From: Gemmobacter sp. 24YEA27
Lineage (GTDB): Bacteria; Pseudomonadota; Alphaproteobacteria; Rhodobacterales; Rhodobacteraceae
DNA length: 25,372 nt
Direction of reading: 5' to 3'
NCBI RefSeq assembly: GCF_030052995.1
Contig: NZ_JASJPW010000008.1
Coordinates: forward strand, 1-25,372
A program made the translations under genes and the position numbers. The notes under the pieces are model-generated. The model ran no database searches, had not been told where the DNA came from, and saw only the letters and a list, made by a program, of their open reading frames with translations. Below, piece by piece: positions 5,540 to 25,372 of the stretch. Numbering within the stretch: the stretch's first letter is position 1; the number at the start of each line of letters is the position of its first letter.

Positions 5540-7171
5540 TTATGCGGCTTTGGCGATGGGGCTGCGCTTCCATTTCCAGGGGAGCAGTTCCGGCAGGCGC
5601 GACACTGGCATGTCGGGGAGTCGTGCCAGGACATCGGCCAGCCAAGCCTGAGGATCGACGTCGTTCATCTTGGCGGTGACGATGAGGGAATACATGAAGG
5701 CGGCGCGTTCGCCGCCCCGGGGCGAACCGGTGAAGAGCCAGGCTTTGCGGCCGAGGGCGATACCGCGCAGGGCTCGTTCGGCTGAGTTGTTCGTCAGGCA
5801 GATGCGGCCGTCGTCGAGGAAGCGGGTGAAGGCGTCCCAGCGGCCGTCCTGCTCGAACATGTAGTTGATGGCCTTGGCGACGGGGTTGTGCTTCGACATC
5901 CGGGCGCGCTCGGCCCGCATCCAGTCGTGCAGGTCTTCGACCATCGGGCGCACCAGCCTCTTGCGGGTATCTTGGCGCGCTTCGGCGCCCATGCCGGTGA
6001 TCTCGCGCTCGGCATCGAAGATGGCATCGATGCGTTTGACGGCTTCCAGCGCGATGGGCGAGATCTCTTCGGCGACCGATCTGCCCTTACGGGCGGTGGC
6101 CTTGATGTCGGCCAGTTCGAAGAACTTCCGCCGGGCGTGGCTCCAGCATAGCGCGCTGAACACCGGCGCGGGTTTGCGGGCCGCATCGTAAACGCCGTTG
6201 TATCCGCCATAGGCGTCGGCCTGCAGGATGCCGGTCCAGCCCGCCAGATGCCGGGTCGGATGTTCCATCCTTCGGTCGGTCGAGAAGTAATAGAGCGCCG
6301 CAGGTGGTGCCCCGCCTGCAAAGGGGCGGTCATCGCGCAGATAGGTCCAGAGCCGGGCCGTCTGCGTCCCGCCCTTGGCCATCAGTGGCACGGTCGTATC
6401 ATCCGCGTGTAGTCGTTCGGCGCCGAGAACATGGGTGCGGATCAGATCGTGGATCGGCTGCAGCGCGACGCTGCAGGCCCCGACCTGGTCGGCCAGCGTA
6501 GACAGGCTGATCTCGACACCTTCCTTGGCATAGCGTTCGGCCTGCCGGTTCAAGGGCTGATGCTGGCCGAACTTCTCGAAGAGCACCATCGCCAGCAGGT
6601 TGGGGCCGGCCCAGCCCCGAGGCGTGGGGTGGAAGGGGGCCGGTGGTTGGCTGATCTTCTCGCAATCCCGGCAGGTGAACTTCTCGCGGATGGTCTGGAT
6701 CACCTTCCACTGCCGGGGAATGACCTCCAGCGTCTCGGTGATGTCCTCGCCCATCTTCACGATGCGCGTCGACCCACAACAGGTGCAGGAGGCCGGGGCT
6801 TCGACCACCACGCGCTCCCGCGGCAAATGATCGGGAAACGGCTTGCGGGACGGACGGCGACGTTCGAAAGCCGCAACTGTGGTCTTCGCCACGGCGGCAT
6901 CCGTCTTTGCCCGATCCTGCCCAAGGTCCGTCTCCAGATCCTTAAGCTGCATCTCGAGTTGTTCGATCAGCCGGGCGTGGCGTTCGGCGCTGTGGCCGAA
7001 CTGCTCGCGGCGGAGTTTGGCGATCTGGAGCTGCAAGTGCCGGATCATCACATCGGAGGCGGAAACGACGGCGCGCGCCTGTATCAGTTCATCCTCTGCA
7101 GCAGCAGTGCGCGCCTCTGCCGCAGCGAGGGCAACACGCAGGATATCGATCTCCGAGGGGGTCTCCGACAT
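5540..7171 (-). CDS. tnpC: IS66 family transposase TnpC
   Basis: The 543-residue DDE transposase of the element. In order it shows an N-terminal leucine-rich coiled coil (about residues 5-100), a zinc-finger region typical of IS66 (CTCCGSTRI followed by CRDCEKI), the catalytic core with HADDTTVPLMAKG and LQADAYGGYNGVYD, and the C-terminal NNSAERALRGIALGRKAWLF containing the catalytic Glu. I use the start at 7171 (MSETPSEID); an in-frame ATG five codons upstream is less typical. The length is normal for TnpC. It lies downstream of tnpB with a 58-bp gap and is intact, in contrast to the second copy. Confidence 0.93.
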   Translation of the reverse strand: MSETPSEIDILRVALAAAEARTAAAEDELIQARAVVSASDVMIRHLQLQIAKLRREQFGHSAERHARLIEQLEMQLKDLETDLGQDRAKTDAAVAKTTVAAFERRRPSRKPFPDHLPRERVVVEAPASCTCCGSTRIVKMGEDITETLEVIPRQWKVIQTIREKFTCRDCEKISQPPAPFHPTPRGWAGPNLLAMVLFEKFGQHQPLNRQAERYAKEGVEISLSTLADQVGACSVALQPIHDLIRTHVLGAERLHADDTTVPLMAKGGTQTARLWTYLRDDRPFAGGAPPAALYYFSTDRRMEHPTRHLAGWTGILQADAYGGYNGVYDAARKPAPVFSALCWSHARRKFFELADIKATARKGRSVAEEISPIALEAVKRIDAIFDAEREITGMGAEARQDTRKRLVRPMVEDLHDWMRAERARMSKHNPVAKAINYMFEQDGRWDAFTRFLDDGRICLTNNSAERALRGIALGRKAWLFTGSPRGGERAAFMYSLIVTAKMNDVDPQAWLADVLARLPDMPVSRLPELLPWKWKRSPIAKAA

Positions 7172-7229
7172 GCGAAGGCCTACCACAGGGATGCAAAACA
7201 GTCCAACAAAACAAAGGATTTTGGGGCTG

Positions 7230-7580
7230 TCAGCCCGCCGAGGCAGGCCGCTGCGTCCAGCGCGGATTGCGCCAGTCGATCCCCTCGAGAAGATAGCCGA
7301 GCTGCGCCGCCGAGACAGGAACGGCAGCGCCGTCCCGGCTCACCGGCCAGATGAACTTCCCCGCCTCCAGGCGCTTCAGATAGAGCGACATGCCGACCCC
7401 ATCGTGCCACAGCACCTTGATCAGATCCCCCCTGCGCCCGCGAAAACAGAAGATCTCGCCACCGTGTGGGTCGCGCCCCAGCCCCTGCTGCACCTTCAGC
7501 GCCAGGCTGTTCATCCCGCAGCGCATGTCCGTCACCCCGCCCGCGATCCAGACCTTCGCCCCAGCCGGAAACGCGATCAT
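7230..7580 (-). CDS. tnpB: IS66 accessory protein TnpB
   Basis: A 116-residue protein of the IS66 Orf2/TnpB family, needed with TnpA for transposition in this family although its exact role is unclear. Diagnostic motifs are VTDMRCGMNSLALKVQQGLG, IFCFRGRRGDLIKVLWHDG and GMSLYLKRLEAGKF. Its ATG at 7580 overlaps the tnpA stop by 4 bp (ATGA), indicating translational coupling. Length is normal. Confidence 0.92.
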   Translation of the reverse strand: MIAFPAGAKVWIAGGVTDMRCGMNSLALKVQQGLGRDPHGGEIFCFRGRRGDLIKVLWHDGVGMSLYLKRLEAGKFIWPVSRDGAAVPVSAAQLGYLLEGIDWRNPRWTQRPASAG

Positions 7581-7990
7581 GCCCGGTCCAGAACCTGCAC
7601 CAGACGCGCCAGCAGCATCGGATCGATGGCGGCGGCGACCGCAAGCCTGCGCCCGTTGGCCAGCGTGATCTCGACGTGGTCTTCGCGGTCGGAGGTCGGC
7701 TCGGTGGTAGATTGGCGGCATGCCGTGCCAGCAGTATCCGAAGCAACCTGCACCGCAAGAAACTGCGGGCGACTGCCAGCGACAAGTTGACCGGACCGAA
7801 AATCCCGACGCCACCGCGTCAGCAGTGCCCGCGAAATCTCGTAACGCCGAGCCGTCGCGGCGCATTGCCGAAAACCCCGAAGGCTCTCTTCGACAATCCG
7901 AACCTTCTCGGCATCCGTCCATTCCCGCCGCCGACCTTTGTCGACAACCGAGAGAACCTCGATCTGTGATCTGAACTTAGGGTCATCCAT
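7577..7990 (-). CDS. tnpA: IS66 accessory protein TnpA (helix-turn-helix)
   Basis: A 137-residue protein with an N-terminal transposase-type helix-turn-helix (REWTDAEKVRIVEESL, then ATARRYEISRALLTRWRRDF) that likely binds the element's ends. The C-terminal part (DHVEITLANGRRLAVAAAIDPMLLARLVQVLDR) is typical of IS66 Orf1. It is the first gene of the tnpABC operon, 40 bp inside the right inverted repeat. Confidence 0.9.
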   Translation of the reverse strand: MDDPKFRSQIEVLSVVDKGRRREWTDAEKVRIVEESLRGFRQCAATARRYEISRALLTRWRRDFRSGQLVAGSRPQFLAVQVASDTAGTACRQSTTEPTSDREDHVEITLANGRRLAVAAAIDPMLLARLVQVLDRA

Positions 7991-11020: not shown

Positions 11021-11473
11021 TCAGCCGCTGACCGAACTCAGCATCAGGCTGGTCTCGCTGTTCAGCACGCCGTCGATCATGCGGATTTCGCGCAAGAGCT
11101 CGTCGAAATGCGACAGGCTGTCGGCGCGGATCTCGGCGATGAGATCCCAGCCGCCATTGGTGGTATGCAGCGCCACCACCGCCGGCAGACCGCGCATCTT
11201 GCGGATCACCTGTGAGGTCGATTTCCCCACCACTTCGATCATCATGATCGCCCGGAATGAGCCGCTTTCGTAATCCTCGCGCACGCGGATTGTGAAACCA
11301 AGGATCGCGCCCGCGCTGAGAAGCCGGTCGAGGCGGTTTTGAACTGTCCCACGCGAAACCCCAAGTGCATCGGCAAGCTTCGAGAGCGGCGCACGGCCAT
11401 CGGCGCGCAGAAAGCTGATCAGCTTGCGGTCCAATTCATCGAAAACGAGTTTCGCCTGATCGTGTCCTGCCAT
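11021..11473 (-). CDS. Lrp/AsnC family transcriptional regulator
   Basis: A 150-residue protein: N-terminal helix-turn-helix (FDELDRKLISFLRADGRAPLS, then LADALGVSRGTVQNRLDRLLSAGAILGF) followed by the RAM ligand-binding domain (FRAIMMIEVVG through LMLSSV). The start MAGHDQ at 11473 gives the normal family length; a longer in-frame extension to 11899 would run through ocd and is rejected. It is divergent from the ornithine cyclodeaminase gene across a 147-bp A/T-rich region with several inverted repeats, the usual layout for a local Lrp-type activator responding to an amino acid, here plausibly arginine, citrulline or ornithine (inferred). Confidence 0.92.
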   Translation of the reverse strand: MAGHDQAKLVFDELDRKLISFLRADGRAPLSKLADALGVSRGTVQNRLDRLLSAGAILGFTIRVREDYESGSFRAIMMIEVVGKSTSQVIRKMRGLPAVVALHTTNGGWDLIAEIRADSLSHFDELLREIRMIDGVLNSETSLMLSSVSG

Positions 11474-11620
11474 CCGCTTCCTGACGATATTTGCAACATC
11501 ACTATAAGATGTGATCAAAATAATCCAGAATAATGCCGGATTATAGCATTTTATTTGTATATTGCTCTGTCGGACACTTTTGCTCACGGTCCTGAGCCCG
11601 CCTCGACCAAGGAGAAAAAG
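11474..11620. promoter_or_regulatory. Divergent promoter/operator region between lrp-like gene and ocd
   Basis: This A/T-rich intergenic region carries two clear inverted repeats: ATCAC/GTGAT (11498-11515, 8-bp spacer) and ATAATCC/GGATTAT (11520-11526 and 11538-11544, 11-bp spacer). A further AATGC/GCATT pair overlaps the second. Multiple degenerate palindromes at about two-turn spacing are typical of Lrp/AsnC octamer binding. AAGGAG at 11609-11614 is a strong ribosome binding site for ocd. Confidence 0.6.
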
Positions 11621-12696
11621 ATGCAAAAAACAGTCCCGTCCGGTCGGGCGCTTGTGCCCTTTGTCAGCGTTGAGAACATGGCGCGCCTGATCACCAGCAT
11701 CGGCCTGCCGCGCCTGCTGACAGAGCTTGTCGATTATATCGAACAGGATTTCCGACGCTGGCAGAGCTTTGAAAAAGCGCCGCGCGTCGCGTCGCATTCC
11801 GAAGGCGGCGTGATCGAACTGATGCCGACCTCGGATCATGTGAATTATGTCTTCAAATATGTGAACGGCCACCCGGTCAATCTGCAGCGCAACCTGCAAA
11901 CCGTTGTGGCCTTCGGCGTGCTCTCGGATGTCGAGACCGGCTATCCGCTCCTTCTGACCGAGATGACACTTTTGACCGCGCTGCGCACGGCGGCGACTTC
12001 AGCCATGGTGGCGCGGCTGCTGGCCCCGAAAGACGCGCGCGTGCTGGCGCTGATCGGCAATGGCGCCCAGGCCGAATTCCAGGCCATCGCCATGCAAACC
12101 ATTTGCGGCATCGAAGAGGTGCGGCTTTACGATATCGACCCTGCCGCCACCGCCAAGACGCGCGCAATCTTGCGGCGACCGGCCTCAGGATCACCGAATG
12201 CAAAAGCGTCGAAGAGGTTGTCCTTGGCGCGCAGATCATCACCACCTGCACGGCTGACAAGCAAAATGCCACGATCCTCACCGATAACCTGGTTGGTGAC
12301 GGGGTGCATATCAACGCGATCGGCGGCGACTGCCCCGGCAAGACCGAACTGGCCGCTGCCATCCTCACCCGTTCGGATGTGTTCGTCGAGTTTCCGCCCC
12401 AGACCCGGATCGAGGGCGAGATCCAGCAGATGCCCGAAGATTTCCCGGTGACCGAGCTCTGGCAGGTGCTGAACGGCGATCGCCCGGGCCGGGTGTCTGA
12501 CCGCCAGATCACGCTTTTTGACAGCGTGGGCTTCGCCATCGAGGATTTCAGCGCCGTCCGCTATATCCGCGACAGGATCCGGGATACTGACTTTAAAGAG
12601 GATCTGGACCTGCTGGCCGATCCTGATGACACCCGGGATCTTTACGGCATGATGGGGCGTATCGCCGGGACCGCTGCGCAGGGTGCCGCAAAATGA
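11621..12696 (+). CDS. Ornithine cyclodeaminase (one frameshift)
   Basis: Cytoplasmic NAD-dependent enzyme of the ornithine cyclodeaminase/mu-crystallin family, converting L-ornithine to L-proline and ammonia. The start at 11621 follows AAGGAG. The N-terminal half has the substrate-domain features (FVSVENMARLI, then SEGGVIELMPTSDHVNYVFKYVNGHP); the Rossmann motif is VLALIGNGAQAEFQA, followed by the conserved NAIGGDCPGKTEL in the second frame. Frames join near 12160-12165, where one base seems lost; restoring it gives ...ARNLAATGLRITECKS-like sequence and a protein of about 358 residues, normal for the long OCD type. Its stop overlaps the next ATG by 4 bp (ATGA), so the pair is translationally coupled. 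It would finish the route from citrulline-derived ornithine to proline. Confidence 0.88.
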
Positions 12697-13624
12697 AGGC
12701 GATCCGCACCTCCGTCCAGGCGCCTTCCGATGTGGTGATGATCCGGCCGCATCGTTTCACGGTGAATACAGAAACCGCCTCGGACAATGTGTTCCAGAAG
12801 ATGGAAGAGGCGGCGACCGGTCTCTCCGGTCTGGCGCATCAGGAAATCACCCGCGCGGTCGGGACCCTGCGGGGCCATGGCATCCGGGTGCATCTCTTCG
12901 AGGATGAGGGCCAGGACACCCCGGATTCCGTCTTTCCGAATAACTGGTTCTCGACCCATGCCGGCGGCCATGTGGCGATCTACCCGATGAAGGCGCCCAG
13001 CCGCCGGCGTGAGCGCAGGGCCGATATCATCGAAATGCTGAAAGCCGAATACCGTGTGCAGGACGTGATCGACTATTCCGGGCTGGAACCTGACGGGCTG
13101 TTTCTGGAAGGCACCGGCGCTATGGTTCTCGACCATAGCGACCGGGTGGCCTATGCCGTCCAGTCCGAGCGCACCAATCCCATCGCTCTGGAACGGTTCT
13201 GCACGCATTTCAACTTTGAACCGATGGTGTTCGGCGCGGCGGACCGGCATGGCGTGGCGATCTACCACACCAATGTGCTGATGTGCATCGCAACCGATTA
13301 CGCGCTTGTCGGCCTGTCTCTCATCACCGATGCCGCGCGGCGCGACGAGATTGCGAACCGTCTGCGCGATACCGGACGCGAGGTGATCGACATCAGCGAA
13401 GAGCAGATTGCCCGTTTTGCAGGCAATGCGCTTGAGTTGAGCGGAGAATCCGGGCGAATCCTCGTGATGTCCACCACCGCCGCGCGAGCCTCTCGCAGAG
13501 GCAGATCGATCTGATCGAAACCTCGACCCCGATTGTCGCGCTGGATATTCCGACCATTGAACGGGCCGGGGGATCGGTGCGCTGCACGATCGCGGGGCTT
13601 CATCTTACCCGCCGAACCAGGTAG
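12693..13624 (+). CDS. Arginine deiminase-related hydrolase, CtlX (citrulline hydrolase)-like (one frameshift)
   Basis: A pentein-fold (amidinotransferase superfamily) enzyme of the CtlX type, a group linked to hydrolysis of citrulline to ornithine, CO2 and ammonia. It shows the diagnostic PDSVFPNNWFSTH segment (~residues 70-82), EGTGAMVLDH, the catalytic-His region IYHTNVLMCIATDYALVG, and the catalytic-Cys motif GGSVRCTIAGLHL near the end. The Cys motif lies after a frame break near 13486, where one base in a GC-rich run is missing; the restored tail SLSQRQIDLIETSTPIVALD is normal and ends at 13624, giving about 310 residues. It is coupled to ocd by a 4-bp overlap, fitting a product (ornithine) passed to that enzyme. 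Substrate assignment is by family and context. Confidence 0.8.
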
Positions 13625-13637
13625 GTCACAACCGAAC

Positions 13638-13667
13638 CTGCCCGGCGGCACTATGGCCGCCGGGCAG
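13638..13667 (+). terminator. Perfect 12-bp-stem hairpin between the CtlX-like and DDAH genes
   Basis: CTGCCCGGCGGC (13638-13649) pairs exactly with GCCGCCGGGCAG (13656-13667) around a 6-nt loop, 13 bp after the upstream stop. There is no T run, so it may attenuate, process or stabilise the operon mRNA rather than fully terminate it. Confidence 0.55.
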
Positions 13668-13731
13668 AAACTGCACCCCCGCTGCGGGACTTCCTTTCGG
13701 CCTTATCCCGGCCCATCTTCAGGTGACTTCC

Positions 13732-14531
13732 ATGACCACGACCCCCGTTTACCGTTTCAACTCGGTCATTCTGCGCGCGCCGTCGCGCTCGATTGTGAAT
13801 GGCCTGCGGGCGGTGGATACCGGCAACCCGACCTATGAGGGCGTGAAGGCGGAACATGAGGCCTATATTGCGGCGCTGACCGATGCCGGCTGCGAAGTCA
13901 CGCTTCTGCCGGCGCTGGAGGAATTCCCGGATTCCGTTTTCGTCGAAGACCCCGCGCTGGTGTTTTCCGAAGGCGCGGTGATCCTGCGCCCTGGCGCCGA
14001 GACCCGGATGCGCGAAACGCAGCATATCGCGCCGGTCCTGCGCGAGAAATTCGCGACCGTGCTGGAACTGGCCGAGGGTGGCTATGCCGATGGCGGCGAT
14101 ATCCTGACCACACCGGACCAGGTGATGATCGGCCTCTCGGCCAGGACCGACCGCAAGGGGCCGAGGCGCTGCAGGATTGTCTGACGCAGCTTGGTCTCAA
14201 ATCCTCCATCGTCGCCACGCCCGAAGGCGTGCTGCATTTCAAGACCGACTGCTCGCTCGTTGGCGATGACCTGGTGCTTTCGACCGGCCGGCTGGCGGCC
14301 TCGGGGGTCTTTGCGGGACTGCGCACCCTGATCGTGCCCGAGGGCGAAGAAGCCGCCGCCAATGCGCTGCGTGTCAATGACGTGGTGCTGGTGGGCAAGA
14401 CCTTCCCGCGCACCATCGACCTGCTGACCGCCGAGGGTCTGACTGTCGTCGCCATCGACACGACCCAGATCGGCAAAGTGGATGCGGGGCTGTCCTGCAT
14501 GTCTCTGCGCTGGTTTGATCCCAAAAAATAA
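13732..14531 (+). CDS. N(omega),N(omega)-dimethylarginine dimethylaminohydrolase (one frameshift)
   Basis: DDAH hydrolyses asymmetric dimethylarginine or monomethylarginine to citrulline plus the methylamine. The start at 13732 is preceded by AGGTGA. Family marks are FPDSVFVEDPALVF (~residues 64-77), EGGYADGGDIL, the catalytic-His segment LHFKTDCSLVGDDLVL, and the catalytic-Cys segment DAGLSCMSLRWF at the C-terminus. The frame breaks near 14157-14160, where a run of four G should be five (DRKG-AEALQD), giving about 266 residues, close to the usual 255-260. The citrulline made here is the substrate expected for the CtlX-like neighbour, and the importer genes follow. Confidence 0.9.
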
Positions 14532-14572
14532 TTAAAAGACAAACCACCCCCAACTCCTGACAGGGAAAGACG

Positions 14573-15355
14573 ATGAAAAAGACCCTCCTCTCCATGGCAG
14601 TCCTCGCGGCGGTTTCGACCGCCGCCCATGCCGAACCGCTGCGCCTTGGCGTCAGCCCCGAGCCCTATATGCCGATGACCTCGTTCGATTCCTCGGGCAC
14701 CTGGGTCGGCATCGAGGCCGAGCTGACCAATCTGCTTTGCGCCGATATCCCGGAAGGCTGCGAAATCCGCCAGATGACCTGGGAAGCGCTGATCCCCGCC
14801 CTTCAGGAGAAAAAGTTCGACTTCATCGTCGGTGCCTTCTCGGTCACCGACAAGCGTCGTGAAGTTGTCGATTTCAGCACGCCCTATGTCTACGCCCAGA
14901 CCGATGTCATCGGCGCCAAAGCAGACAGCCGCCCGCTTGCGCTGGTCAAGGATCCGAATGGCGAGGGCGAGGTGCTGTCGGCGGAAGGTCTTGATGGCGT
15001 CATCTTCGGCGTTCAGGCCGCAACGATTCAGGCGAATTACATCGCGGCTTACCTGCCCGACAACGGCACCCAGAACTACAATAATGCCGATAATGCGATC
15101 TCGGATCTCATGGCGGGCCGCGTCGATTACATCGTTGTGGACAGCGATTACGGCAAAGACTTCCTGACCTCTGCCGATGGCGCGGACTATGAGACCAAGA
15201 TGCGCCTGCCCAATAATATTGTCCTTGGCGAAGGCGTGGCCTATGCCGTGCGCAAGGGCGATGCCGAGACCCTCGACAAGGTGAATACCGCGCTTGAAAA
15301 ACTCCTCGAGGCCGGCACCGCGAAAGAGATCCTGACCAAATGGGGTCGTGAGTAA
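14573..15355 (+). CDS. Polar/basic amino acid ABC transporter substrate-binding protein
   Basis: Family 3 periplasmic solute-binding protein (ArgT/HisJ type), 260 residues. It has a cleavable signal peptide (MKKTLLSMAVLAAVSTAAHA, cleavage probably after AHA). Then come LRLGVSPEPYMPMTSFD and the two-lobe hallmarks WVGIEAELTNLLC, WEALIPALQEKKFDFIVG and SVTDKRREVVDFSTPY. GGGAAAG lies just upstream of the ATG. It captures the substrate for the permeases downstream; the operon context suggests arginine, methylarginine, citrulline or ornithine (inferred). A hairpin with T run directly after its stop would let it be made in excess over the permeases. Confidence 0.92.
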   Translation: MKKTLLSMAVLAAVSTAAHAEPLRLGVSPEPYMPMTSFDSSGTWVGIEAELTNLLCADIPEGCEIRQMTWEALIPALQEKKFDFIVGAFSVTDKRREVVDFSTPYVYAQTDVIGAKADSRPLALVKDPNGEGEVLSAEGLDGVIFGVQAATIQANYIAAYLPDNGTQNYNNADNAISDLMAGRVDYIVVDSDYGKDFLTSADGADYETKMRLPNNIVLGEGVAYAVRKGDAETLDKVNTALEKLLEAGTAKEILTKWGRE

Positions 15356-15366
15356 GCCAATCTTAC

Positions 15367-15398
15367 GGGGCAGGGCCGGACGGCGCTGCCCCATTTTT
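15367..15398 (+). terminator. Intrinsic (partial) terminator between binding-protein and permease genes
   Basis: GGGGCAG (15367-15373) pairs with CTGCCCC (15386-15392), with further GCC/GGC pairing inside, and is followed directly by ATTTTT. This is the best intrinsic terminator in the window. Leaky terminators after the binding-protein gene are common in ABC operons. Confidence 0.8.
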
Positions 15399-15420
15399 CT
15401 GCAAAGGCGAATACAGGTCG

Positions 15421-16131
15421 ATGGACTCAAAATGGGAATTGCTCGGCTGGGGTGATGCCGGCTGGGGCGACCAGCTTCTGCATGGCTTCATGATGACGAT
15501 CGTCGTATCGGTGATTGCCTATGCGCTGTCGCTTACGATCGGACTTCTGGCGGCGCTGAGCAAACTCTCCGCGAGCCGCATTCTGCGCGGCATTGCCAAT
15601 ACTTATACGACAATTGTGCGCTCTCTGCCCGAGCTTCTGGTCATCCTGATCGTCTATTTCTCGCTGGTCGGCGGGGCGGAAAAGCTGCTGAAGAGCCTGG
15701 GGCTGGTCAGCGACAGGTTTGAATTCAGCGGGTTCTGGGCTGCGGTCGTCGCACTGGCCTTCGTCAATGGCGCCTTCATGACCGAGGTGATGCGCGCCGG
15801 CATCCTCGCGGTGCCAAAGGGCCAGACCGAGGCGGCCGAGGCCATCGGCATGCCGCGCGCGCTGCTGTTTCGCCGCATCGTGCTGCCGCAGATGCTGCGC
15901 CATTCGGTGCCGGGCCTGGGCAATCTCTGGCTTGCCATCACCAAGGAAAGCGCGGTCGTGGCCGTGCTTGGCACCTTCAACGAGCTGCTCTTTACCGCTT
16001 ATCGCGCCGCCGGGGTGACCAAGGAATACGGGCTCTTCTACAGCGTGGTCGCCGCTGCCTTCCTCCTCATCTCGCTGGTTTCCATGGCGATCATCCATCG
16101 CATCGAAAAGCGCGTGGGAAGGGGCTTCTGA
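15421..16131 (+). CDS. Amino acid ABC transporter permease, HisQ/GlnP family
   Basis: A 236-residue inner-membrane permease with about five hydrophobic segments. It opens with the HGFMMTIVVSVIAYALSLTIG first helix typical of the HisMQ family and carries the EAA loop (EAAEAIGMPRALLFRRIVLPQML) that docks on the ATPase. NTYTTIVRSLPELLVILIVYF is the characteristic second helix region. Its stop overlaps the start of the second permease by one base (TGATG), so both subunits are co-translated. It forms a heterodimeric pore with that partner. Substrate specificity cannot be read from the permease. Confidence 0.92.
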   Translation: MDSKWELLGWGDAGWGDQLLHGFMMTIVVSVIAYALSLTIGLLAALSKLSASRILRGIANTYTTIVRSLPELLVILIVYFSLVGGAEKLLKSLGLVSDRFEFSGFWAAVVALAFVNGAFMTEVMRAGILAVPKGQTEAAEAIGMPRALLFRRIVLPQMLRHSVPGLGNLWLAITKESAVVAVLGTFNELLFTAYRAAGVTKEYGLFYSVVAAAFLLISLVSMAIIHRIEKRVGRGF

Positions 16132-16820
16132 TGATCAGCGATATTCTTCAGTTTCTGCCGCCCCTGATAAAGGCGCTGCCGCTTACGCTGATGCTGACGG
16201 CGGTTGCGGGCACGCTCGGGCTGTTTTTCGGCATCATCCTGGCACTTGCCCGGATTTCGGGCTACCGGATCCTTGTCTGGCCCTCGTTCACGCTGGGCCT
16301 CGTGATGCGGGGGACGCCGCTTCTGGTGCAGCTTTATCTGGTCTATTATGGCCTTGGAGAGCTGCTGCCCGGAACCTGGGTGCGGCATTCCTGGCTCTGG
16401 CCCTATCTGCGCAATGCGATCTGGTACGCGATCCTTGTGCTGACCATCAGCCAGGCCTGCTATAATGCCGAAGTGTTGCGTGGCGCCATCCTTGCGGTGC
16501 CGAAGGGCCAGATCGAGGCCGCTCGTGCCGTCGGCATGAGCCCGGGGCGCATCTTCCGCCGCATCACCCTGCCGCAGGCTTTCCATGCGGCGTTGCCGGT
16601 TCTGGCCAGCGATGTGATCATCCTCCTGAAGGCGACCTCTCTCGCCTCGACCGTCACGATCATGGAAGTGCTGGGCACTGCCCGCGCCCTTCAGCGCGAG
16701 ACCATGATGATCCTCGAGCCGCTGATCGCAGCTGCGATCATCTATTTCGTCGTCGTTCTCATCCTCACGCAGCTCACCTCGCTGCTTGAGCGCAAAGCAA
16801 CCAGCTATCGTGCCCGATGA
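16131..16820 (+). CDS. Amino acid ABC transporter permease, HisM family
   Basis: A 229-residue second permease of the importer. It has the family pattern PLIKALPLTLMLTAVAGTLGL at the N-terminus, FTLGLVMRGTPLLVQLYLVYYGLG in the middle and the EAA loop EAARAVGMSPGRIFRRITLPQAF. It begins one base inside the previous stop and is followed after 45 bp by the ATPase gene. The HisQ-HisM order with the binding protein first and the ATPase last matches basic/polar amino acid uptake systems. The protein is intact and of normal length. Confidence 0.92.
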   Translation: MISDILQFLPPLIKALPLTLMLTAVAGTLGLFFGIILALARISGYRILVWPSFTLGLVMRGTPLLVQLYLVYYGLGELLPGTWVRHSWLWPYLRNAIWYAILVLTISQACYNAEVLRGAILAVPKGQIEAARAVGMSPGRIFRRITLPQAFHAALPVLASDVIILLKATSLASTVTIMEVLGTARALQRETMMILEPLIAAAIIYFVVVLILTQLTSLLERKATSYRAR

Positions 16821-16865
16821 CCGGGCAATGGGCCAAACCGCGTCGGGCGGAAAGGATTGAAAAAG

Positions 16866-17633
16866 ATGGCCAATGATATTGCGCTTGCGGTCAGGGATAT
16901 CCGCAAGAAATTCGGCCCGCTCGAGGTCCTCAAAGGCATCAGCCTCGAGGCAAGGCGCGGGGATGTCATCTCGCTGATCGGGCAAAGCGGGTCAGGGAAA
17001 AGCACGCTTTTGCGCTGTATCAATTATCTCGAGACCCCGGACAGCGGTGAAATCATCGTCGGCAATGAGGTGATCCGTGCCCGGCCCGTCAAGGGCAGGA
17101 TGCCGCGCGCCGACCGCAGGCAGCTGGAACTGGTTCGCCAGCGCCTTGGCATGGTGTTCCAGAACTTCAATCTCTGGGCGCATATGACGGTGCTGGAAAA
17201 CATCATCGAAGGGCCGCGCCACCTGCTGGGCCTCACGCGCGACCAGGCCGTGGCCGAGGCGGAGCTGCTGCTGGAGAAGGTCGGCATCCGTGAAAAGAGA
17301 GACAGCTACCCTTCGCGCCTCTCTGGCGGCCAGCAGCAGCGCGTGGCTATTGCGCGCGCGCTGGCGATGAACCCCGAGGTCATGCTCTTTGACGAACCGA
17401 CCTCGGCGCTTGATCCCGAACTGGTGCAGGAGGTGCTGCAGGTCATCAAAGGGCTTGCCGCCGAGGGCCGCACCATGATCCTCGTCACCCATGAAATGGC
17501 ACTGGCGCGGGACATCTCCTCCGAGGTGGTCTTCCTGCATCAGGGCCTGGTCGAAGAGCGCGGCGCGCCCTCCGACATGATGAGCAATCCGAAATCGGAC
17601 CGGCTGCGTCAGTTCCTGCGCATGGTCGCGTGA
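16866..17633 (+). CDS. Amino acid ABC transporter ATP-binding protein, HisP/GlnQ family
   Basis: A 255-residue ATPase that drives the importer. Walker A is GQSGSGKST (about residues 39-47), the Q-loop is in MVFQNFNLWAHMTVLENI, the signature is LSGGQQQR, Walker B is VMLFDEPTSALD and the H-loop is VTHEM. FNLWAHMTV-type Q-loops are usual in polar amino acid transporters. I use ATG 16866, 9 bp after AAAGGA; a TTG at 16857 is also in frame. It closes the plus-strand operon, and its stop lies 64 bp from the convergent RocB-like gene. Confidence 0.94.
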   Translation: MANDIALAVRDIRKKFGPLEVLKGISLEARRGDVISLIGQSGSGKSTLLRCINYLETPDSGEIIVGNEVIRARPVKGRMPRADRRQLELVRQRLGMVFQNFNLWAHMTVLENIIEGPRHLLGLTRDQAVAEAELLLEKVGIREKRDSYPSRLSGGQQQRVAIARALAMNPEVMLFDEPTSALDPELVQEVLQVIKGLAAEGRTMILVTHEMALARDISSEVVFLHQGLVEERGAPSDMMSNPKSDRLRQFLRMVA

Positions 17634-17697: not shown

Positions 17698-19599
17698 TTA
17701 GTGCATTCGCACGAATGGCTCGGCTTTGTTGAGACCTCGCCTGGTCAGAGCCCCGGACGGGCGGCGCAGATCATCCCGAATTTCGCGGGCGCGCGCTGCC
17801 GAGCCGGATCTTTGCCGAGAGGCCTGTCCTGCCGACAAGCTGGACTCCGCATTCCTGTCCGGGCTGTTTCGGGACATCGTCCACAAAGGTCGATGAGGGG
17901 CGCGGCAACGGCGCCCCACTTGCGCATCGCTATCCCGGTCGAAGAAGCGCGCAACGATTGCCGTCAGAAAATCCGGCAGTGTTTCAAAGGCATAGGGGGC
18001 GTGCACCCGTTCCAGCCGTTGGTGATATTCGCGGCCCCAGGGACCGATATTGACCACCGGAAAGCGCAGCGCATTATCCGGCACATGGTCGATATAGCGC
18101 CGCGCGGGCGTGTTTTCCGCGACGATCCTTGCGTCTTCCGGTGCTGGGACATTGCCCAGAAAGCTCATGTCCGAGATGCCGACAAAGGTGTCACGCCAGC
18201 AGATCTCTACCCCGGTCGCAGCAAAGATCTCCTGCCTTGCGGTTTCGATCGCGCTTATCAGCGCCGCGTCATCAGTGCGGTCGGGATCGAGATGGCTGTG
18301 CGGGTAATGCAGACTGCCAAAGCCCAGCACAATCGCGGGCCCGTTCAGCCCTGCACGCGCCACCAGCCGCGTGCAAAGCGCCCGGCTGAGCGCCAGCGGA
18401 TTGTCGTGGGCCGGCGGTGTTTCAAGGATCTCCTCCAGCGCGGCCTGACCTTCACGCGCGGCAACAAGGCCCATCAGTTCGGCGACCGTCAGGACGCGCG
18501 AAGGATCGGGCTCTGCGACTTCGCCGGTAAAGGCGTGCCGGTTGCGCGCGAAAGCCGCCATCGCCGCCGCCAGCGCGTTTTCAGCAAGGCTATGGAACTG
18601 CGCCATCAGCGCCGAGGGGCTGCGGCTGTGCGACAGCCAGTTGAAGGCCAGCCAGACCTGTTCCGGCGTGGTCACATCATAGCCCGCGCGGAAGTCACCA
18701 CCGTCAAGACAGATCGGCGGCGGCGAGACCTCGGCGCCGCCGCGGTCGCAAAGATCGGGATTGGTCTCCATCGCGGTCATCAGATGCGCCGCGATCAGAT
18801 GCGCGCTGGCGCCGTCGAAAGGATAGCTCGCATGGGAGGGCTTGCCCACGACCATCGCAAACGGCAGGAGCTTGCCGATCGTGCCTTTGTAGATTGCCCG
18901 GCCCCCGGCGCCGTCGCCCTGATCGCTGGTCGCATCCAGATTGATGCCGCCCGCAATCTCAAGATCCCATTCGCGCGCGAGCTCGGGCAGGATGTCACGA
19001 AAGGCCCGCATCCCCTGCGAACTCGCCTCTTCATCCGGCGTCATGACGAGCAGCAGATTGCCCTCTGCCGCGCCGGCACCCGCGAAATTCTCCAGCGTGG
19101 TGATCCCGGCGGCAATGCCGCTTTTCATATCGAGAAGACCGCGCCCCGGCAGGAAGTCACCGCTTTCGAAATCGGCCCGCGCCTTTTCCTCGGCTGCGGA
19201 AAGCGGGCGGCTGGCCAGATCCTGGCGCAGCGCGGCCAGCAGTGGTCCGGGCGAGAAGGCCAGATCTGCAAGGTCACGGTAATTCGCGGCGGAAACCACA
19301 TCATAATGGCCCGCAAGCACCAGGGTCCGCCGCCCGGCCCCGCGCAAAAGCCCGACCACGATCTGCCGCTGCGGATCGCCATGGCTGCCGATCAGCCGCA
19401 CCCGTTCAGGATGATCCGCGAAACAGGGCAGCCCGCGCAAAAGGGCTGCAGCTTTCTCGCCAAAGGCCGCTTCGCCCGGGGTGCCGGTCTCGCTCGCCCA
19501 TTCCACAAGGCGCAGGGCATGATCCAGGCAGCGCGCTGCGTTTTTACCCTGAACCGCGCGCCCGATCTGGCTGCCGCCGGGCTGTTCTTCATTCGCCAT
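17698..19599 (-). CDS. M20 family metallohydrolase, RocB-like
   Basis: A zinc-dependent M20 peptidase/amidohydrolase resembling RocB, the arginine-utilisation protein of the Bacillus roc regulon, whose reaction is not established. Metal-site motifs are all present: LAGHYDVV (His98, Asp100), GLLDMKSGIA (Asp157), TPDEEASSQGM (Glu190/191), GINLDATSD and, near the end, GREYHQRLERVHAPYAFETLP. RocB-type proteins are about 550-570 residues; this frame is 633. The last ~70 residues, after RFFDRDSDAQVG, are Arg/Ser/Pro-rich and look unlike the family, so the natural stop may have been lost by a late frameshift. The start overlaps the TetR stop by 11 bp, placing it last in a three-gene operon. A longer plus-strand frame lies opposite but has no recognisable protein. 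Confidence 0.87.
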   Translation of the reverse strand: MANEEQPGGSQIGRAVQGKNAARCLDHALRLVEWASETGTPGEAAFGEKAAALLRGLPCFADHPERVRLIGSHGDPQRQIVVGLLRGAGRRTLVLAGHYDVVSAANYRDLADLAFSPGPLLAALRQDLASRPLSAAEEKARADFESGDFLPGRGLLDMKSGIAAGITTLENFAGAGAAEGNLLLVMTPDEEASSQGMRAFRDILPELAREWDLEIAGGINLDATSDQGDGAGGRAIYKGTIGKLLPFAMVVGKPSHASYPFDGASAHLIAAHLMTAMETNPDLCDRGGAEVSPPPICLDGGDFRAGYDVTTPEQVWLAFNWLSHSRSPSALMAQFHSLAENALAAAMAAFARNRHAFTGEVAEPDPSRVLTVAELMGLVAAREGQAALEEILETPPAHDNPLALSRALCTRLVARAGLNGPAIVLGFGSLHYPHSHLDPDRTDDAALISAIETARQEIFAATGVEICWRDTFVGISDMSFLGNVPAPEDARIVAENTPARRYIDHVPDNALRFPVVNIGPWGREYHQRLERVHAPYAFETLPDFLTAIVARFFDRDSDAQVGRRCRAPHRPLWTMSRNSPDRNAESSLSAGQASRQRSGSAARAREIRDDLRRPSGALTRRGLNKAEPFVRMH

Positions 19600-20254
19600 C
19601 GATCATCCTCACCGGCATGTCATTCTCACCCTGTCCGGGCGGCACAAAGGCCTCTCCCGTCAGGGCCTCGACCGATGACAGGGCCACCGTCACCAGTTCA
19701 TTTTCCTCGAAAAGCCCGCCCGCAAGCCGGCCCTCCAGCCAGAGCCCGTCCATCAGCGCATTGATCGCCACGGCGAGCCGATGGGCGCGTACCGGATCGA
19801 TCTCTTTGCCGCGCGAGGCCAGGAAAGCCACGATCAGGCGCTGCAGCTTGTTGCGAAAGGCCAGATAGCCCTCGCAATGGATCCCGGCCAGCGTCGGGTC
19901 ATGGCTCACCTGGCTGATAAAAGCCGACCAGAGCGCCAGATTTCGGTTGTTGGAAACCGGCTCGGTCAGATTGGCCACAATGAAACGGCGCAGGTTCTCC
20001 GCCGCCGATCCTGCATCTTCCTCATCGGTGAAGGTCAGGACAGAGACCACCCTACGATACGCCTCCTGCAAGAGGATCTCTTTGCTTTCAAAGTGATGCG
20101 CGATCAGACCGGGGGCAACCCCGGCCTGTTTCGCAATCTCGCGGAAGGTTGCGCCCTGCAGCCCCGACTGCGCAATCACGTCCAGCGCCGCCTCGACCAG
20201 ATCGCCCCGGCGTTGCGCCTCGGGGATCCGCCGCCAGGCCGGGGCCTTTGTCAT
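19589..20254 (-). CDS. TetR family transcriptional regulator (BetI-like)
   Basis: A 221-residue repressor starting MTKAPAWRRIPEAQRR. The helix-turn-helix spans about residues 18-62 (LVEAALDVIAQSGLQGATFREIAK, then GVAPGLIAHHFESKEILLQEAY), followed by an all-helical ligand domain with WSAFISQV and ALMDGLWLEGRLAGG, as in BetI-type proteins. The start at 20254 overlaps the upstream enzyme's stop by 4 bp (ATGA); the longer in-frame start at 20314 would sit inside that gene. The TetR gene is therefore co-transcribed with the enzymes it probably controls, and the 28-bp palindrome at 21158-21185 is the likely operator. The ligand is unknown. Confidence 0.92.
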   Translation of the reverse strand: MTKAPAWRRIPEAQRRGDLVEAALDVIAQSGLQGATFREIAKQAGVAPGLIAHHFESKEILLQEAYRRVVSVLTFTDEEDAGSAAENLRRFIVANLTEPVSNNRNLALWSAFISQVSHDPTLAGIHCEGYLAFRNKLQRLIVAFLASRGKEIDPVRAHRLAVAINALMDGLWLEGRLAGGLFEENELVTVALSSVEALTGEAFVPPGQGENDMPVRMIDGE

Positions 20255-21129
20255 GCCGCTTGCCGGTGCACCGGACGGGTGAGGCAGGTCGGCCCGCCTT
20301 CGCAGGCGATGCAAAGCGCGTCGCCCTCGAAGGTTTCCACGGTGCAGCCGGCAGCTTCAAGTGCGGCCGTGGTTTTCGGGAAACCGCTGAGCATGATCAG
20401 CTCAGACGGGCGGGTCGGCAGCACATTGAGGCTGAGGCCGTTGCTGGCGAGGAATTCATCCTTCGGCGCCTCGACAATGCGGATGCCGCGCTGTTTCAAA
20501 AGCCTGTAAAGCGCGACCGGCAGCAGCGGCAGGAAGGCCAGCACCAGGTCATCCGCCAGCGGGCTCAGCACCGACAGGAGATGCAGGCAGGCGGCCTCAC
20601 CATCCCAGAGCGGCAGGTCAAAGGCGATGACGCTGATGCCATCGGGGGCAAGGATTGCAGTCAGCTGGTCGATGCCCTGCTGATTGGTGCGGATGCCGCG
20701 CCCGACGAGCAGCGTTTTTGGGTCAAGCCAGATACAGTCACCGGCCTCGACGGTTGCCTCGCCGGTGATCCGGCCTGCAACCGGAATCTGATGCTGCTGA
20801 TAGACGGCCTCGTGCAGAGCGGGTTCATCCCGACGGCGCAGCTTGCCCATATTGAGGATGATCGCGCCCTTGTCGGTCATCAGCGAAGGGTCATGTGTGA
20901 ACATCGCATCGGCAAGGCCGTCGTCCTGATCCTCAAGCCAGATGATCTCGGCCCCGGCCTTCACGATCAGATCGGCAAAGCCCTGATATTGCGCGATGGC
21001 TTTGGTGCTGTCGAAGGGGGTCACATAGTTCCAGTCAGCGGGATCGGCCTTGATAAGGCTCGCCCCCGGGCGGCGCATCATCACCTTCAGCAAAGGCGCC
21101 GACATTTCCTGTGAACCGTATTGTGCCAT
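20251..21129 (-). CDS. Amidinotransferase/dimethylarginine dimethylaminohydrolase family protein
   Basis: A 292-residue pentein-superfamily enzyme, intact, and different from the two on the plus strand. It has MMRRPGASLIK and FTHDPSLMTDKGAIIL near the N-terminus, GEATVEAGDCIWLDPKTLLVGRG in the middle, the probable catalytic His in AACLHLLSVLSPL, and the probable catalytic Cys in EGGPTCLTRPVHR at the end. Members hydrolyse or transfer guanidino groups of arginine derivatives; whether this one acts on methylarginine, arginine or another guanidine cannot be decided here. It heads the operon with tetR and the RocB-like gene, behind a strong palindrome and an AGAGAGA-type ribosome binding site. 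Confidence 0.85.
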   Translation of the reverse strand: MAQYGSQEMSAPLLKVMMRRPGASLIKADPADWNYVTPFDSTKAIAQYQGFADLIVKAGAEIIWLEDQDDGLADAMFTHDPSLMTDKGAIILNMGKLRRRDEPALHEAVYQQHQIPVAGRITGEATVEAGDCIWLDPKTLLVGRGIRTNQQGIDQLTAILAPDGISVIAFDLPLWDGEAACLHLLSVLSPLADDLVLAFLPLLPVALYRLLKQRGIRIVEAPKDEFLASNGLSLNVLPTRPSELIMLSGFPKTTAALEAAGCTVETFEGDALCIACEGGPTCLTRPVHRQAA

Positions 21130-23832: not shown

Positions 23833-25372
23833 GTAACCATCCGGCGTAGGCCGCAGTTATGCGGCTTTGGCGATGGGGCTGCGCTTCCATTTCCAGGGGA
23901 GCAGTTCCGGCAGGCGCGACACTGGCATGTCGGGGAGTCGTGCCAGGACATCGGCCAGCCAAGCCTGAGGATCGACGTCGTTCATCTTGGCGGTGACGAT
24001 GAGGGAATACATGAAGGCGGCGCGTTCGCCGCCCCGGGGCGAACCGGTGAAGAGCCAGGCTTTGCGGCCGAGGGCGATACCGCGCAGGGCTCGTTCGGCT
24101 GAGTTGTTCGTCAGGCAGATGCGGCCGTCGTCGAGGAAGCGGGTGAAGGCGTCCCAGCGGCCGTCCTGCTCGAACATGTAGTTGATGGCCTTGGCGACGG
24201 GGTTGTGCTTCGACATCCGGGCGCGCTCGGCCCGCATCCAGTCGTGCAGGTCTTCGACCATCGGGCGCACCAGCCTCTTGCGGGTATCTTGGCGCGCTTC
24301 GGCGCCCATGCCGGTGATCTCGCGCTCGGCATCGAAGATGGCATCGATGCGTTTGACGGCTTCCAGCGCGATGGGCGAGATCTCTTCGGCGACCGATCTG
24401 CCCTTACGGGCGGTGGCCTTGATGTCGGCCAGTTCGAAGAACTTCCGCCGGGCGTGGCTCCAGCATAGCGCGCTGAACACCGGCGCGGGTTTGCGGGCCG
24501 CATCGTAAACGCCGTTGTATCCGCCATAGGCGTCGGCCTGCAGGATGCCGGTCCAGCCCGCCAGATGCCGGGTCGGATGTTCCATCCTTCGGTCGGTCGA
24601 GAAGTAATAGAGCGCCGCAGGTGGTGCCCCGCCTGCAAAGGGGCGGTCATCGCGCAGATAGGTCCAGAGCCGGGCCGTCTGCGTCCCGCCCTTGGCCATC
24701 AGTGGCACGGTCGTATCATCCGCGTGTAGTCGTTCGGCGCCGAGAACATGGGTGCGGATCAGATCGTGGATCGGCTGCAGCGCGACGCTGCAGGCCCGAC
24801 CTGGTCGGCCAGCGTAGACAGGCTGATCTCGACACCTTCCTTGGCATAGCGTTCGGCCTGCCGGTTCAAGGGCTGATGCTGCCGAACTTCTCGAAGAGCA
24901 CCATCGCCAGCAGGTTGGGCCGGCCCAGCCCGAGGCGTGGGGTGGAAGGGGGCCGGTGGTTGGCTGATCTTCTCGCAATCCCGCAGGTGAACTTCTCGCG
25001 GATGGTCTGGATCACCTTCCACTGCCGGGGAATGACCTCCAGCGTCTCGGTGATGTCCTCGCCCATCTTCACGATGCGCGTCGACCCACAACAGGTGCAG
25101 GAGGCCGGGGCTTCGACCACCACGCGCTCCCGGCAAATGATCGGGAAACGGCTTGCGGACGGACGGCGACGTTCGAAAGCCGCAACTGTGGTCTTCGCCA
25201 CGGCGGCATCCGTCTTTGCCCATCCTGCCCAAGGTCCGTCTCCAGATCCTTAAGCTGCATCTCGAGTTGTTCGATCAGCCGGGCGTGGCGTTCGGCGCTG
25301 TGGCCGAACTGCTCGCGCGGAGTTTGGCGATCTGGAGCTGCAAGTGCCGGATCATCACATCGGAGGCGGAAA
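23833..25372 (-). mobile_element. Second IS66 copy, same orientation, cut by window end
   Basis: It starts with the same GTAACCATCCGGCG end as the element at 5516 (offset 18317). As far as I could compare, the first ~960 bp are identical. From about 24794 to the window end it differs by ten missing bases, all G or C in GC-rich runs, and no substitutions. The left flank (GAATACCG) is unrelated to the flank of the first copy, so it is a separate insertion. The tnpA/tnpB side is not in the window. Confidence 0.92.
23857..25372 (-). pseudogene. tnpC: IS66 transposase TnpC, partial, with multiple indels
   Basis: The 3' part, up to about 24794, is identical to the intact tnpC at 5540-7171, including ADDTTVPLMAKG and NNSAERALRGIALGRKAWLF. 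The 5' part contains ten single- or double-base losses relative to that copy and is broken in all frames. The start codon and first ~35 codons lie beyond the window. The pattern (deletions only, only G/C, only towards the sequence end) suggests poor base calling rather than real decay, so the gene may be intact in the organism. Confidence 0.85.

Follow-up and report, generated by a model that had tools for sequence, protein, structure and literature searches.

A candidate operon for methylarginine import and conversion to proline in Gemmobacter sp. 24YEA27

Results

Gene content of the locus

In this work, we analysed a 25,372-base window of Gemmobacter sp. 24YEA27, which corresponds to an entire contig (C8; NZ_JASJPW010000008.1) of a 5.08-Mb genome assembled in 12 contigs (G000), focusing on a set of eight genes that we consider a candidate operon for methylarginine catabolism. 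We describe the families and order of these genes, their conserved active sites, their recurrence in other genomes, and the purifying selection acting on them. Between positions 11021 and 17633, a divergent Lrp-type regulator is followed by ocd, ctlX, a gene of the dimethylarginine dimethylaminohydrolase (DDAH) family, and the binding protein, two permeases and ATPase of an ATP-binding cassette (ABC) importer, as follows:

11021..11473, minus strand: Lrp/AsnC-family regulator, divergent from the operon (PF01037, 60.1 bits, cut-off 25; PF13404, 54.2 bits, cut-off 27)
11621..12696, plus strand: ocd, ornithine cyclodeaminase, with a one-base gap at 12160 (NF005762 in two frames, 287.7 and 267.5 bits)
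12693..13624, plus strand: ctlX, citrulline utilization hydrolase, with a one-base gap at 13482 (NF046062, 357.9 bits for a 273-aa piece, cut-off 334)
13732..14531, plus strand: ddah-like gene, with a one-base gap at 14161 (NF045658 in two frames, 122.0 and 73.4 bits, under the cut-off of 450)
14573..15355, plus strand: ABC importer substrate-binding protein, basic amino acid/opine type (PF00497, 107.3 bits, cut-off 26.4)
15421..16131, plus strand: ABC importer permease 1 (PF00528 and TIGR01726 above cut-off)
16131..16820, plus strand: ABC importer permease 2 (PF00528 and TIGR01726 above cut-off)
16866..17633, plus strand: ABC importer ATPase (PF00005 above cut-off; the best NCBIfam model, HisP, gives 347.4 bits, under its cut-off of 466)

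The gene families, their order, the divergent Lrp/AsnC gene and the downstream ABC importer had been recognized in an earlier note on this DNA, and family profile matches bear them out, as does the 4-base overlap of ocd and ctlX (12693-12696). That note overlooked that ocd, ctlX and ddah are each split across two frames, with no single open frame in the window. The same block was found in the genus relatives G010 and G012 at ~95% DNA identity with all three enzyme genes intact, and ctlX is present in 3 of the 13 genus genomes, G000 counted.

Enzymes of the predicted citrulline-to-proline half

The intact CtlX orthologue of G012 scores 413.1 bits on NF046062, passing the cut-off of 334. The FPNN and HTN motifs are found in the window piece 12693-13514 and, together with C298, are invariant in 18 of 18 aligned sequences; in CtlX these two motifs replace the guanidine-binding Asp motifs, which was taken as fitting an amide substrate (Price et al., 2022; PMC9007349). 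The same source had already published the pairing of ctlX with ocd together with fitness data, CtlX being still termed "putative". Searches by sequence for solved structural relatives of CtlX found none (single sequence, E 0.001; profile, E 1). The intact Ocd orthologue of G012 reaches 571.6 bits on NF005762 (cut-off 350). Since both proteins exceed curated cut-offs, the CtlX motifs are kept, and fitness data for ctlX-ocd are published, the predicted citrulline to ornithine to proline half of the route is well supported.

The DDAH-like enzyme and the importer

The intact DDAH orthologue of G012 matches the solved structure 3rhy, which we take to be the P. aeruginosa DDAH, over nearly its full length (E 5.9e-50), and aligns by profile to DDAH-1 chains. 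Residues D60, E65, D66, R85, R132, H162 and C249, presumably the catalytic or substrate-binding residues of DDAH, are kept and invariant in 19 sequences. At the catalytic acid position Asp stands for Glu (DGGD motif), the same as in two aligned DDAH-1 chains, and the HFK motif agrees with the HLK of the aligned DDAHs, the corresponding motif in arginine deiminases being HLD according to the CtlX report (PMC9007349). On the arginine deiminase model ArcA (TIGR01078) the orthologue gives 38.5 bits, short of the cut-off of 489.1, and on NF045659, by its name built on a mycobacterial protein, 28.4 bits (cut-off 300). Because of this homology and active-site conservation, a DDAH step from methylarginine is supported at the level of sequence.

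The main contig of G000 carries a second DDAH gene with an EGGD motif (L101:12866-13657, G000:C1), whose product is 48% identical to that of the operon. When the A1 profile of DDAH was run against the genus genomes, 12 of 13 matched at E 1e-3 or better; ten of them score 285–302 bits, like the second copy, and scores near 500 bits, like the operon DDAH, were obtained only in G010 and G012, besides the two frame-split pieces of the window.

On the lysine/arginine/ornithine model TIGR01096 the importer binding protein scores 158.9 bits, below the cut-off of 256.35; its best natural solved relatives are one arginine-binding and one nopaline-binding protein.

Reading frames of the three enzyme genes

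For Ocd, the matches to profile positions 1-175 and 168-334 lie in separate frames; the CtlX frame is lost after residue 266, with the Cys-bearing end in the other frame; and for DDAH, profile positions 2-139 and 136-254 match in two different frames. Compared with G010 and G012, the window is one base short at 12160, 13482 and 14161, all three within a run of G or C. Further one-base deletions relative to same-genus relatives lie at 1446 (repA), 2721 and 13676-13715, and many of the deletions of the contig fall in G/C runs.

Insertions and deletions between G000 and G012 were counted in stretches aligning at at least 85% over at least 600 bases, for which contig C8 and 4 of 20 other G000 stretches qualified. 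Overall, contig C8 counted, G000 had 5 insertions against 28 clean one-base deletions. Of these, 22 deletions and 4 insertions lay outside the contig, in 48.3 kb (the 4 aligned stretches), with 18 of the 22 deletions and 0 of the 4 insertions in G/C runs; on the contig itself 3 of 6 clean deletions lay in such runs. The ratio of nonsynonymous to synonymous differences (pN/pS) relative to G012, calculated on either side of each gap, was 0.12 and 0.07 for ocd, 0.13 and 0.26 for ctlX (the 0.26 coming from 10 differences only), and 0.04 and 0.02 for ddah; the importer genes, which are intact, gave 0.03–0.14. Also split in two frames is an arginase-like gene on the main contig (G000:C1:2399305-2400185, L149; 226.3 and 28.3 bits, cut-off 227.6), and this split is probably another sequencing error.

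Given that the relatives are intact, that like deletions occur on other contigs, and that pN/pS stays low on either side of the gaps, the breaks in ocd, ctlX and ddah are most likely sequencing errors rather than decay. The opposite possibility, that ocd, ctlX and ddah are genuine pseudogenes in G000 and belong to a decaying operon whose importer survives, draws on the finding of one frameshift per enzyme gene and zero in the importer genes; however, the one-base deletions relative to G012 elsewhere in the genome and in repA, the frame-split arginase-like gene and the low pN/pS speak against it, and we rejected it as the main interpretation, regarding it as very improbable.

Recurrence of the gene set

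Loci were counted in the best 80 of 551 confirmed ddah loci obtained by scanning genomes with 19 DDAH sequences, a sample that leans to close relatives, and ctlX was counted as beside ddah when within 2.5 kb on the same strand. By this measure, ctlX adjoins ddah in 32 of the 80 loci, 28 of which also have three importer genes downstream, and an lrp homologue lies upstream on the opposite strand in 23 of the 32. All eight genes (lrp, ocd, ctlX, ddah, importer genes, ATPase) were found in 15 loci. Their order is exactly that of the window in 14 of these, and in the remaining one, L019, lrp sits between ocd and ctlX. Rhizobiales-type loci (Ensifer, Sinorhizobium, Rhizobium, Mesorhizobium, Brucella/Ochrobactrum and other Rhizobiales) account for 31 of the 32 and Paracoccus for one, and almost all of the 14 exact full-order loci are Rhizobiales-type. 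Outside the genus, protein identities across the 31 ctlX-bearing loci amount to 58-76%, with 46-53% for the binding protein and 45% for one Lrp, and this conservation indicates that the gene set is not due to chance. Placed on the ddah tree, the presence of ctlX requires 7 changes, at least 4 of them forced by well-supported branches; the ctlX-ddah linkage would thus have arisen or been lost repeatedly, which argues for functional coupling.

Among Rhodobacteraceae, sampled as one genome per genus, ctlX was detected in 27 of 248 genomes (E 1e-60). The other 26 carriers have ocd within 1.5 kb in 22 cases and an A1-type ddah beside ctlX in none (G010 and G012, which have it, are not among the 26); an A1-type ddah is present in 8 of the 26 at E 1e-20, always on a different contig from ctlX. 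The neighbourhood survey in Rhodobacteraceae that the earlier note had called for therefore went against an arrangement typical of this family, an idea that we rejected, and the pattern is Rhizobiales-type instead.

Neighbouring genes and M20 amidohydrolases

In the genus of the window, the strand facing the operon (17698-21129) carries an M20-family gene, a TetR regulator and a second pentein:

17698..19599, minus strand: M20-family hydrolase, convergent neighbour, open reading frame as listed (PF01546, 45.0 bits, cut-off 24.6); the version in relatives has 556 aa
19589..20314, minus strand: TetR-family regulator, open reading frame as listed; its orthologue in L011 matches BetI-type models under their cut-offs
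20251..21129, minus strand: second pentein, arginine deiminase/DDAH family (PF02274, 64.9 bits, cut-off 22.8)

This block shows 95-97% protein identity between G012 and Paracoccus sp. IB05 (L015), the M20 protein 95%, and the convergent M20 gene is possibly linked in function to the operon. The L011 orthologue of the second pentein gives a weak match to DDAH structures (E 4.9e-14); at E 1e-60 the protein was found in 8 of 385 genomes of the class, its own genome counted, and relatives occur in 4 of 72,556 plasmid records, one of them a Rhizobium plasmid on which the relative adjoins a TetR gene, with an ABC importer divergent.

A different M20 gene, which the window's genus lacks at that place, accompanies the recurrent set in Rhizobiales-type loci. 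Of the 32 ctlX-ddah loci, 25 carry an M20D homologue downstream of their importer genes, 4.0–4.6 kb from where ddah starts (e.g., L016:12078-13256), in L017 with no ATPase match in between; in five loci devoid of ctlX it lies upstream of ddah, at 1.2 kb in four and 2.1 kb in L060. Two M20D proteins scanned on TIGR01891 reached 358.6 and 371.5 bits, both over the cut-off of 153.75.

Contig C8 is probably a plasmid or part of one, since it carries a RepA-like partition gene and IS66 transposase genes. The latter occur at two places (5540-7922 and 23857-25371), the second transposase open reading frame covering only profile positions 131-387.

Discussion

Proposed route

By family knowledge, the product of each of the three enzymes is the substrate of the next. 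The linkage of ctlX to ddah in 32 of 80 loci and the low pN/pS of ddah also speak for a joint route. We propose that the genes constitute a catabolic operon through which methylarginine is imported and converted via citrulline and ornithine to proline, a reading that we hold to be about equally likely to be right or wrong, methylarginine being the best-supported substrate. Under the Lrp-type regulator, and probably upon induction by the substrate, the ABC importer would take up methylated arginine, either asymmetric dimethylarginine or monomethylarginine; the DDAH-like enzyme would then free dimethylamine or methylamine, leaving citrulline, which CtlX would hydrolyze to ornithine and carbamate (CO2 plus ammonia), and Ocd would close the ring of ornithine, yielding proline and ammonia.

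Several observations weigh against this proposal. Neither DDAH model is passed by the intact orthologue, which scores 206.5 bits on NF045658 (cut-off 450) and 137.1 on NF045660 (cut-off 340). In the three-enzyme chain claimed in the earlier note, CtlX and Ocd exceed their curated cut-offs, and the DDAH step is carried by homology and active site. Moreover, a second DDAH copy is already present on the main contig; in 41 of the 80 loci ddah is accompanied by none of the tested partners, and in 7 of these 41 a different importer set lies upstream; and the frequent M20D partner has no role in the scheme. In favour of the proposal, a glutamine synthetase of family TIGR03105 exceeds its cut-off in the host, next to an open reading frame that resembles, by eye, a glutamate-synthase-type protein; such genes are linked to methylamine use. 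However, while TIGR03105 is over cut-off in 9 of the 13 genus genomes, G010 is not among them, unlike the other two operon carriers, G000 and G012; it therefore does not track the operon, and we discarded it as a link to methylamine use.

Alternative substrates

The first enzyme might instead act physiologically on plain arginine, in which case the operon would represent an arginine-to-proline route by deimination, with methylarginine as a side substrate. The lack of any ArcA (TIGR01078) match over cut-off in the G000 genome and the arginine binder among the best solved relatives of the binding protein would fit such a route, as would a DDAH-annotated protein that a mycobacterium requires to grow on arginine (PMC4569260). 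Conversely, the HFK motif resembles that of DDAHs and not that of arginine deiminases, the model named after the mycobacterial protein is barely matched, and the genome holds an arginase-like gene, albeit frame-split. We consider arginine unlikely as the physiological substrate. The arginase-like gene also qualifies the wording "without a urea cycle or arginase" of the earlier note, in which the lack of an arginase describes the proposed route and not strain G000.

The M20D and M20 neighbours leave room for a conjugated substrate, namely an N-acylated or otherwise conjugated (methyl)arginine from which an M20 amidohydrolase would strip the conjugate ahead of the DDAH-CtlX-Ocd chain. Pointing in this direction are the position of M20D next to the importer or ddah genes, the TIGR01891 scores of the two scanned proteins, and the M20-family gene adjoining the operon in the genus of the window; nevertheless, the window has no M20D after the ATPase, its own M20 gene being a different and convergent one, and sequence is a poor guide to what an M20D enzyme acts on. 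We regard a conjugated substrate as improbable, much as we do arginine. A broader version is a little more doubtful still: a recurrent alphaproteobacterial salvage of conjugated methylarginines from eukaryotic protein breakdown, comprising importer, an M20 amidohydrolase that would take off an acyl or peptide group, DDAH, CtlX and Ocd, whose linkage was assembled or lost repeatedly. If true, bacteria of the rhizosphere and other environments would have in methylarginine a nutrient so far unrecognised.

Should the proposed import-to-proline route be correct, methylarginines, which arise when eukaryotic proteins are turned over, could serve bacteria as a source of nitrogen and carbon through one dedicated operon, and CtlX would have a second physiological feeder. 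The operon would then also be a well-defined setting in which to test the CtlX reaction, still regarded as putative.

Comparison with known systems

Among the literature matches listed, most subscription journals being outside their scope, none describes an operon that joins ddah, ctlX, ocd and the importer; the ctlX-ocd half is already published, and similar sets occur in soil bacteria. Methylarginine use by P. aeruginosa, in which DDAH is reportedly under DdaR (Lundgren and colleagues, 2017), shares the DDAH-type first step; the operon described here has a neighbouring Lrp-type regulator and itself includes ctlX and ocd for the two steps that follow. The ctlX-ocd system shares the CtlX family, its motifs, the ocd neighbour and the conversion of citrulline via ornithine to proline, whereas the neighbours named in the available text are ocd or aruG, with no DDAH or such importer (Price et al., 2022; PMC9007349). 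The mycobacterial roc cluster with Rv2323c likewise combines genes of amino acid catabolism with one for an enzyme annotated as DDAH; however, it is induced by arginine and contains rocD and rocE, and CtlX or Ocd are not among the genes named in the portion consulted (PMC4569260). The core is also seen in a plasmid locus of Rhizobium sp. ACO-34A (CP021373.1, L161:8295-11698), where an AsnC-type regulator diverges from ocd and from a homologue of CtlX that is annotated as amidinotransferase, although an arginase gene lies next on the other strand, ddah is absent, and the importer, with a glnQ-type annotation, is upstream of the regulator. As this plasmid carries the same core with an arginase beside it, the regulator–ocd–ctlX core seems to take different feeders.

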